DNA from: Natronococcus sp. AD-5
Lineage (GTDB): Archaea; Halobacteriota; Halobacteria; Halobacteriales; Natrialbaceae
Direction: 5' to 3'
Length of the DNA stretch: 64,000 bases
NCBI RefSeq assembly: GCF_030734285.1
Contig: NZ_CP132295.1
Span: 682,001 to 746,000, forward strand
Shown: piece after piece, positions 34,172 to 36,325 of the stretch
Numbering within the stretch: position 1 is the first letter of the stretch
Layout: every line of letters starts with the position of its first letter
Translations under genes and position numbers: made by a program
Notes under the pieces: generated by a model
Databases searched by the model: none
What the model saw: the letters and a program-made list of their open reading frames with translations, nothing else
Told to the model about the DNA's origin: nothing

Positions 34172-34196
34172 TAACGTTTGGCTCTGTTGAAATCCT
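34172..34196 (+). repeat. Left end of the mobile element: target duplication and terminal repeat
   Basis: TAACGTTT (34172-34179) is the target duplication; GGCTCTGTTGAAATCCT (34180-34196) is the terminal inverted repeat, perfectly complementary to the right end. Confidence 0.9.
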
Positions 34197-34231
34197 CAAA
34201 GAGTTACAGATACGCCCGGTAGTCTGACCGG

Positions 34232-35053
34232 ATGCAAGCCCTCCCAAAATCGCAGTTGCTCCGGTTCGTTGAGCAGGCATTTCACTTGGCCCGGCGTACC
34301 GTCGCCCGCTACTCTTCAAAATTCTCGAAACGACGGTACACACTCCACCAGCACATCGTCCTCCTCTGTCTCAAAGTACGGAAGAATACAACGTACCGGA
34401 CGCTTCTGGACGAACTCATCGAAATGCCTCGGATTCGGAGCGCTATCGAGCTTGAGGAACTCCCCTCTCCCTCGACGCTGTGTAAAGCGTTCAACCGGCT
34501 CAACATGGCTGTCTGGCGTGTCCTTCTCAACCTCTCGGTCACGCTTCTCCCGACCAACGGTGTCGTCGGAATCGACGCCTCCGGTTTTGACCGGAGTCAC
34601 GCCTCGAAACACTACACGAAGCGAGCGAAGTTGACGATTCAGCAGTTGAAAGTCACGCTTCTCGTAGACACAAGGTCGAACGCGATTCTCGACTTACACG
34701 TAACGACGACACGAAAACACGACTCACAGATTGCGCCGTCGCTCATCAAGCGGAATACCGGGAAAGTAGCAGTTCTCCTCGGCGACAAGGGATACGACGA
34801 CCAGAAGGTTCGCGCGTTAGCCCGTGAAATTGGTGTTCGTCCGCTCATCAAACACCGCGAGTTCTCGTCACTCCACAAAGCGTGGAATGCTCGACTGGAC
34901 GCCGATCTCTACGGTCAGCGCAGTCAAAACGAGACGGTAAACTCTCGCCTCAAACGCAAATACGGTGCATTCGTCCGCTCACGGCACTGGTGGAAGCAGT
35001 TCCGTGAACTTGTTGTCGGCTGTCTCACTCACAACATCGACAAGGCACTCTGA
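34232..35053 (+). CDS. IS5-family DDE transposase
   Basis: 273 residues. The catalytic triad is visible: Asp115 in VVGIDASGFDRSHAS, Asp185 in VLLGDKGYDD and Glu234 in QNETVNSRLKRKYGAF, the YREK-like C-terminal signature of IS4/IS5-superfamily enzymes. The N-terminal region (KRRYTLHQHIVLLCLKVRK and later STLCKAFNRLN) is the usual helical DNA-binding part. It begins 35 nt after the left terminal repeat, has no frameshift or stop, and is likely active. Confidence 0.93.
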   Translation: MQALPKSQLLRFVEQAFHLARRTVARYSSKFSKRRYTLHQHIVLLCLKVRKNTTYRTLLDELIEMPRIRSAIELEELPSPSTLCKAFNRLNMAVWRVLLNLSVTLLPTNGVVGIDASGFDRSHASKHYTKRAKLTIQQLKVTLLVDTRSNAILDLHVTTTRKHDSQIAPSLIKRNTGKVAVLLGDKGYDDQKVRALAREIGVRPLIKHREFSSLHKAWNARLDADLYGQRSQNETVNSRLKRKYGAFVRSRHWWKQFRELVVGCLTHNIDKAL

Positions 35054-35132
35054 ACGTTAGATATAGGGAACTTAGCGACCGTCGCGCAGTAATAGCTGCG
35101 TTGCTACACACCGAAAAGTTTCTCCGTGATAC

Positions 35133-36227
35133 ATGACTAAGAGATCCATGGATACTCCCGAACTTGTTTGTTCTTCGTGTGGGCGGACGTACACCGATCA
35201 GTGGCGGTGTGAGTGTGGCGGCGTCCTTGACTTCACTCACCAACCGCTTCCGGCATCCGACCGGCCAGACCCCGATCAGTTCGATACCCGAGACGGACTC
35301 TGGTCGTTCGACATGTTCATTCCGGTTGAGAAAGGCGTCTCTCTCGGCGAAGGAATGACGCCGCTGGTTTCATCATCGACATGGGATGCTCAGTTTAAAC
35401 TCGAATACGTCTCGCCAACGGGCAGTTTCAAAGATCGGGGTGCGACCACGACAATCAGCCACGCAATTGCGTGTGGCGCAGATCGAGTCGTCGAAGATTC
35501 ATCAGGGAACGGAGGGGCTGCCATCGCAACCTATGCGGCTCGCGCTGGACTCGACGCAGAGATTTACGTTCCGGCCTCTGTAAGAAAGGGGAAGCTACGA
35601 GGAATCGAACGGGTCGGTGCCACACCTATTCGAATCGAAGGTGGACGCCAAGCCGCGACCGATGCATGCATCGAAGCTGTCGAATCGGGCGATGCATGGT
35701 ACGCAAGTCACTCGTGGAGTCCAGCGTTCTCTGCTGGGACGGCGACGTTCGCGTATGAAGTCACACTCCAACGTGACTGGAACGTCCCTGACGCGATCGT
35801 GATGCCACTCGGCCATGGAACGCTGTTCCTGGGCGCGTACCGTGGATTCAAGGCGTTGTCCGAAGCAGGGTGGATTGATACGGTGCCACGTCTGCTCGGC
35901 GCGCAAGCCGCAGGATATGCCCCGATTGCGAGCGAACTCAACGCAGTCCCCGAGAGCGAGAACGATGTCGCAGATGGCGTCCATATACGGGAGCCAACAC
36001 GAAAACAACAACTCCTGAATGCGATTGCTGAGACCGACGGTGATGCGATTGCGATCACGGAAGATGATGTGCAAACGGAGTTAGACCGGCTCCACTCACA
36101 CGGGTTCTACGTGGAACCGACCTCAGCGATCGCTCCTGCGGCACTTGCGGCGTATCGAGAACGCGGAACGCTTGGGCCAGATGCAGACGTGGTGATGCCA
36201 CTCACAGGGCATGGATTAAAGATGTAA
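35133..36227 (+). CDS. Threonine-synthase-like PLP enzyme (transposon passenger)
   Basis: 364 residues. An N-terminal zinc ribbon (Cys13, Cys16, Cys26, Cys28) precedes a fold-type II PLP domain. The PLP lysine is Lys100 in SPTGSFKDRGATTT, the phosphate/carboxylate loop is SSGNGGAA (123-130), and VMPLGHGTLFLGAYR is the C-terminal cofactor-binding segment. This is the layout of archaeal threonine synthase, which turns O-phosphohomoserine into threonine; other beta-replacement reactions (for example cysteate synthase) are possible. It lies between the transposase (79 nt away) and the right terminal repeat and is intact. The ATG at 35133 is used; a second ATG at 35148 is possible. Confidence 0.85.
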   Translation: MTKRSMDTPELVCSSCGRTYTDQWRCECGGVLDFTHQPLPASDRPDPDQFDTRDGLWSFDMFIPVEKGVSLGEGMTPLVSSSTWDAQFKLEYVSPTGSFKDRGATTTISHAIACGADRVVEDSSGNGGAAIATYAARAGLDAEIYVPASVRKGKLRGIERVGATPIRIEGGRQAATDACIEAVESGDAWYASHSWSPAFSAGTATFAYEVTLQRDWNVPDAIVMPLGHGTLFLGAYRGFKALSEAGWIDTVPRLLGAQAAGYAPIASELNAVPESENDVADGVHIREPTRKQQLLNAIAETDGDAIAITEDDVQTELDRLHSHGFYVEPTSAIAPAALAAYRERGTLGPDADVVMPLTGHGLKM

Positions 36228-36300
36228 CCAGACGGTACGCTCATCGATACGTTCGCACACCTACCGAACGGCTATTCCAGCGAGACAATGTTGGAACGAT

Positions 36301-36325
36301 AGGATTTCAACAGAGCCTAACGTTT
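36301..36325 (-). repeat. Right end of the mobile element: terminal repeat and target duplication
   Basis: AGGATTTCAACAGAGCC (36301-36317) is the exact complement of the left repeat; TAACGTTT (36318-36325) repeats the target sequence of the left flank. Confidence 0.9.

Follow-up and report, generated by a model that had tools for sequence, protein, structure and literature searches.

A transposase gene and a PLP-enzyme gene within one pair of terminal repeats

The stretch of DNA analysed here (the window) comprises 64,000 nucleotides of a 1.02-Mb contig (NZ_CP132295.1) from the 5.17-Mb genome of the haloarchaeon Natronococcus sp. AD-5, and holds a 2,138-bp unit in which a transposase gene of an insertion sequence (IS) and a gene for a pyridoxal-phosphate (PLP) enzyme lie together inside a single pair of terminal inverted repeats (TIRs). 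The left end (LE), GGCTCTGTTGAAATCCT, occupies 17 bp of the forward strand at 34180-34196 and recurs as an exact reverse complement at 36301-36317, while an 8-bp target-site duplication (TSD), TAACGTTT, flanks the unit in two exactly matching copies at 34172-34179 and 36318-36325. A first-pass annotation of the window had described perfect repeats and identical flanks bracketing both genes, and its coordinates proved correct base for base. It had also stated that only one repeat pair is present; in agreement with this, a search of the window for the 17-mer with up to three mismatches returned the two TIRs and nothing else, with 0.05 matches expected by chance.

The transposase gene (34232-35053, forward strand) is intact and encodes a protein of 273 amino acids (aa), and the catalytic residues D115, D185 and E234 that had been assigned to a DDE transposase were confirmed in this open reading frame (ORF). 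This protein scores 219 bits against the IS5-family model NF033579 of NCBIfam (curated cut-off 140) versus 46 bits against the IS4 model, and shares 83% aa identity with a transposase from Halorubrum lacusprofundi that is annotated as ISHla2-family, ISHla2 being the nearest annotated name. The model score, the DDE residues, the 17-bp TIRs and the 8-bp duplication all place the element in the IS5 family. An IS6 ancestry, which similar GGCTCTGTTG ends had brought to mind, was rejected, as the transposase scores as IS5. Immediately after the transposase stop codon lies a conserved tail, ACGTTAGATATAGG (35054-35067, forward strand), which marks the inner edge of the left module and beyond which the cargo starts. 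At the other side, a right-end module of about 66 nt (36252-36317, reverse strand) starts with TTCGCA, ends in the right TIR and is kept across units with differing cargo.

With a passenger gene unrelated to transposition inside one TIR pair, the unit is a transporter IS (tIS). We rejected its assignment as a composite transposon, since it has one transposase and one TIR pair and not two IS copies, and as a mobile insertion cassette (MIC), since a transposase is present; 18 related units, together with the cassette at locus L131 described below, do fit the latter class.

The passenger gene and its relatives

The passenger gene is intact and encodes a threonine-synthase-like PLP enzyme of fold type II (forward strand) with a strong match to the Pfam family PALP (210 bits, E=6e-62). 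The first-pass annotation had described a complete gene at 35133-36227 with a PLP lysine at Lys100 and a zinc ribbon. The ORF, the lysine, which lies in the motif SFKDRG, and a cysteine pattern compatible with a zinc ribbon (C13/C16/C26/C28) were all found, and the C-terminus reads TGHGLK, as in threonine synthase, but the start needs revision. The ORF opens at 35133 (364 aa), yet the start codon that relatives share is the in-frame ATG at 35148, which makes a protein of 359 aa (35148-36227) the likelier product.

It had further been suggested that a mobile threonine synthase might supply amino acid autotrophy. This suggestion did not hold up. The passenger scores 114.4 bits against the threonine synthase model TIGR00260 (thrC), under the curated cut-off of 167.1, whereas two paralogs in the host genome exceed that cut-off (288 and 234 bits). 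At the positions aligned to T88, N154, S155 and R160, which we take to be the substrate-phosphate site residues of Thermus thermophilus threonine synthase, the passenger has G, H, S and F, so that three of the four are changed; unlike the passenger, the host paralog at C1:3629076 retains STGNT and NSLNPFRLEGQKT (C1 and C2 denote contigs of the window's own genome, G000, and L-numbers the surveyed haloarchaeal loci). On the basis of the sub-cut-off score and the altered phosphate site we rejected the passenger as a true ThrC, and the case for a threonine-synthase function appears weak; together with the two thrC-scoring genes of the host, these features leave an autotrophy benefit unsupported.

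Against 11 relatives the gene has a ratio of non-synonymous to synonymous substitution rates (dN/dS) of 0.08-0.18. Relatives at 74% or higher DNA identity are rare and scattered, occurring in nine other genomes among 392, from four families, and cross-family identity reaches 94-95% aa, above the 90% to another copy in the same genome. That copy (C1:3808787-3809866) and a more distant paralog (C1:2901506-2902648; 60% aa) have no recognisable ends, and belong to a haloarchaeal PLP-enzyme subfamily.

A search for other full two-gene copies, proposed by the first-pass annotation, found one in another genus: Halalkalicoccus paucihalophilus has the same transposase-passenger element between the same ends, at 93% DNA identity. 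In addition, the same passenger forms a transposase-free cassette of 1300 bp at L131, with related TIRs and an 8-bp TSD, GTTTGTAA. The passenger has the same junction with the transposase (window and Halalkalicoccus) and without it (L131). Together with the mobility of sister elements described below, these copies bear out the earlier proposal that both genes form one mobile unit. No match to the unit was found in IMG/VR or phage records.

Cargo is the rule among related haloarchaeal elements

We surveyed 80 transposase loci from haloarchaeal genomes and 40 further loci chosen as convergent repeat pairs by pattern searches, 27 of which had at least seven of eight matching TSD bases. In 76 of the 80 transposase loci, the LE is found exactly 52 bp ahead of the first codon of the transposase, while the right TIR sits anywhere from 63 to 4,237 bp downstream of the gene, at a distance of at least 275 bp in 67 of the 69 loci having a right end within 5 kb. 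Exact TSDs mark the true ends of many of these loci; over all loci, an exact 8-bp TSD is present at 70 of 205 convergent end pairs, as compared with 0.26% for randomly paired flanks. This gave 67 TSD units (at least 7/8 bp), comprising 46 with a full transposase, three with a partial one and 18 without, although a few loci were counted via two collections and distinct insertions are slightly fewer. Transposases of this one IS5 subgroup are present in 219 of 391 sampled genomes and in 67 of 86 genera of the class.

Each of the 46 TSD units with a full transposase holds an additional 288-4,250 bp past the transposase stop, and in 37 of them this DNA contains an ORF of at least 100 aa. Metabolic passengers had been supposed to be uncommon in the IS5-like elements of archaea, yet cargo is the rule in this IS5 subgroup. 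Repeats that bracket the transposase only, set beforehand as an observation that would speak against the proposed unit, were found at a single one of the 80 transposase loci (L020; 950 bp), the lone cargo-free locus, in which the right repeat is decayed.

The cargo itself is diverse. Its 77 segments fall into 55 clusters, the largest of which is inflated by transposase fragments, and by this clustering there is no conserved ORF common to most members. Pfam matches include enzymes (nitronate monooxygenase, O-methyltransferase, TehB-like methyltransferase, RibD-type reductase, maltose acetyltransferase, alpha/beta hydrolases and glyoxalase), transport proteins (MATE, CNNM/CorC transporters and a Na+/H+ exchanger) and a range of others (a 7TM histidine kinase with a metallo-beta-lactamase-fold gene, a PQQ propeller protein, GYD, HalOD1, DUF7344 and BAT); some cargoes are helix-turn-helix (HTH)-type proteins (DUF7344, TrmB and HTH_10).

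Module boundaries, movement and capture

Across 33 units, information content falls to near zero about 14 nt past the transposase stop; conservation returns over the last 66 nt or so, up to the right end. In transposase-less units a counterpart of the window's tail ACGTTAGATATAGG, GGTCAATACAGG, precedes the cargo, and a RATAYAG motif lies near 16 of the 36 ends, versus 2.4% of internal windows. One 105-aa cargo occurs in two settings, one with a transposase gene ahead of it and one without, and in both it is attached at the same GGTCAAYACAGG motif.

Several sister units carry marks of movement, the window copy's own support being its ends and the second full copy in Halalkalicoccus. One transposase-less unit, in a Halorubrum genome, has its exact empty counterpart in another Halorubrum, where the 8-bp target, ACTGAGGT, stands only once. 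A 647-bp transposase-less cassette occupies two sites with two different duplications, and the 1,304-bp element of L041 (transposase plus cargo) is 100% identical at two different TSD-flanked sites in two genomes, with a third genome carrying it identical over 1,298 bp. We also noted a copy of the L041 element in Halorubrum laminariae (L040, 5949-8200) whose last 6 nt have been replaced by an element with the TIR GGCTCTGTTGAAACGGC, the outer TSD, GCTATACC, being intact.

Other loci bear on how cargo may be gained. At L061 and L149 a decayed inner right end is retained before the cargo and a second end beyond it is used, while at L080, at L088 and in a composite of the Natronococcus genome itself, it is the outer ends of two neighbouring elements that are used. 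Searches of this genome with the unit and with its terminal repeat revealed the same repeat around other genes: a broken transposase with a nitronate-monooxygenase gene (C2:191206-193219), a broken transposase with a 146-aa ORF (C2:626338-627765), an intact transposase with a TrmB-like regulator and a small multidrug-export-like gene (C1:3921468-3924236), a transposase-less unit with a cupin/zinc-ribbon gene (C1:3925825-3926745) and a miniature element (C2:789512-789890). The two C1 elements are enclosed by outermost ends with a perfect 8-bp TSD, AATTATTG, forming the 5,278-bp composite C1:3921468-3926745 (L015); the perfect outer duplication indicates that the whole block, both elements along with the intervening DNA, moved together. 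This composite also holds a 305-aa membrane-protein ORF and a 228-aa ORF that, by eye, resembles a tyrosine recombinase.

Judged from these sequences, the copies differ in their cargo, 8-bp duplications accompany the insertion of units whether or not these have a transposase, one empty site is precise, and the outer ends of neighbouring elements define larger units with duplications of their own. The empty site, the identical elements in three genomes and the composites with outer-end duplications support real movement, and the configurations of L149, L061, L080, L088 and C1:3921468-3926745 suggest that these are capture intermediates. The unit in the window is, very probably, a 2,138-bp unit transposon: an ISHla2-like IS5 element with a captured host gene, belonging to a three-module haloarchaeal family. 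Such an element would consist of a left module, made up of the left end and the transposase, then a slot for variable cargo that begins after the transposase stop, and finally a right end of about 66 nt. The transposase would recognise mainly the 17-bp ends, and may mobilise in cis the copy that encodes it and in trans the cassettes that lack a transposase. Cargo could be gained by end skipping, in which an element whose own right end has decayed makes use of a neighbour's right end lying further along and takes the intervening gene with it, a later clean-up deletion leaving a clean single-gene cargo.

Alternative explanations

A number of observations weigh against this interpretation. The flanking genes of the window copy sit apart in its relatives and the insertion-adjacent bases are not conserved, and no empty site for it was found among 41 relatives; the Halalkalicoccus copy has no TSD; six of the 11 near passenger relatives have no recognisable ends nearby; and none of the other units in the Natronococcus genome has a perfect TSD by itself, although the C1 composite does. 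Furthermore, the order of events in end skipping is pieced together from snapshots, and movement is read from sequences.

That some close passenger relatives lack ends, including the 90% aa copy at C1:3808787, might suggest that the PLP gene is a resident one beside which an IS happened to insert, the second repeat being a chance match or a solo end. To this we attach next to no weight: repeats matching at 17/17 positions and a duplication matching at 8/8 lie outside both genes, with hardly any match expected in the window, and the same gene pair between the same ends in another genus already contradicts it. It is very unlikely that an ordinary IS5 element took up the gene once, with cargo no property of the family. 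A cargo-free form does exist (L020), and passenger-bearing IS are rare in some other families, with one member in IS6 (PMC7986276), but such a one-off capture is already contradicted by the distances of the right end in the survey, by the cargo in every full-transposase TSD unit and by the cargo clusters. The HTH-type cargoes could be taken as a sign that the ORFs downstream serve the IS as helpers of transposition or as regulators; we consider this extremely unlikely, as most clusters are unrelated to one another and to DNA transactions (PLP enzyme, antiporter, glyoxalase, acetyltransferase) and no ORF is common to most members.

A different question is whether the cargo matters to the elements at all. 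It may be that the units move but that their cargo hitchhikes as neutral DNA, having been caught up through end skipping, and that its function brings no selective help in their spread. Several cargoes are short, decayed or without Pfam matches, and their sizes vary widely, as this would lead one to expect. Set against this are the recurrence of intact genes of plausible use and the low dN/dS of the passenger family, although the latter may reflect selection in non-mobile hosts. We regard neutral cargo as rather unlikely, though deserving of serious consideration.

Relation to known mobile elements

The preferred reading, a cargo-bearing IS5 unit transposon of a three-module family, has its closest named relative in ISHla2 of Halorubrum lacusprofundi, whose copy on pHLAC01 has, besides the similar transposase, a perfect LE 52 bp upstream of the transposase gene and a right TIR with one mismatch; its annotation, however, covers only the transposase part of the element. 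Passenger-bearing tIS and transposase-less MICs are known kinds of element in bacteria (PMC9330008, PMC3129680). Like the haloarchaeal units, tIS carry genes unrelated to transposition inside their TIRs (PMC9330008, PMC3129680, PMC7986276), but they are reported as occasional members, such as the one in IS6 (PMC7986276), whereas haloarchaeal cargo is the norm and differs between nearly all copies examined. The modular mobile insertion cassettes of IS231/MIC231 in the Bacillus cereus group, a subgroup singled out as modular in 2008 (PMC2266710), share the common ends and the forms with and without transposase, and carry genes for resistance, virulence or metabolism (PMC2266710). They are nonetheless IS4 elements with cargo between the left TIR and the transposase, whereas in the haloarchaeal elements, which are archaeal and of the IS5 family, the cargo follows the transposase and precedes the right end; the window unit was accordingly rejected as an IS231/MIC231 type on its IS5 over IS4 score and the position of its cargo.

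TIME-COMP and other composites bounded by miniature inverted-repeat transposable elements (MITEs) resemble our units in that short non-autonomous ends mobilise the genes between them (PMC13367494), but are Tn3-derived and bacterial. Among haloarchaea, HqIRS32/ISH2 is a transposase-less MITE with a protein-coding ORF, but represents one family of about 520 bp with one ORF and no variable cargo (PMC3119063), and a 2019 study of archaeal elements recorded no detection in archaea of transposons that carry passengers (PMC6563490). In the literature outside subscription papers and ISfinder we found no description of this haloarchaeal cargo system, and searches for the TIR string or for ISHla2 passenger genes returned nothing relevant.

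We read the haloarchaeal elements as a modular transporter-IS/mobile-cassette system, apparently akin to the bacterial IS231/MIC231 but built on IS5. Whether they amount to a class-wide gene-mobilisation system seems to us evenly balanced; in such a system left end and transposase, cargo and right end would be interchangeable, and single genes of many classes would be repeatedly captured, moved in cis or trans and shared between families. It would then be to archaea what cassette systems are to bacteria, and one of the main routes by which genes are transferred in Halobacteria. Single genes are known to be transferred extensively in haloarchaea, and elements of this IS5 subgroup, with their many cargo genes, offer a concrete vehicle for this that can be put to the test. 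How insertion sequences gain cargo also becomes directly testable, given the sharply defined module edges and the candidate capture intermediates, and in Haloferax the element ends could be put to use as a genetic tool.

Miniature and mixed units

Several smaller observations were made in the course of the survey. Five loci (L145, L151, L160, L083 and L097) hold transposase-less miniature units of 354-417 bp with the same TIRs and 7/8 or 8/8 TSDs, several of which combine two different end types. A unit of Natrinema ejinorense (L047:5244-8620) has a perfect 8-bp TSD and an ISHla2-type right end, together with a left end, GGCTCTGTTGAAATGGC, that looks as if it belonged to a different element and adjoins an ORF resembling an IS6-type transposase; ends may possibly have been paired here across IS families. 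Finally, L177:568-2562 is a transposase-less unit with a TSD whose 346-aa ORF resembles an IS110-type transposase, possibly reflecting one element nested in or carried by another.
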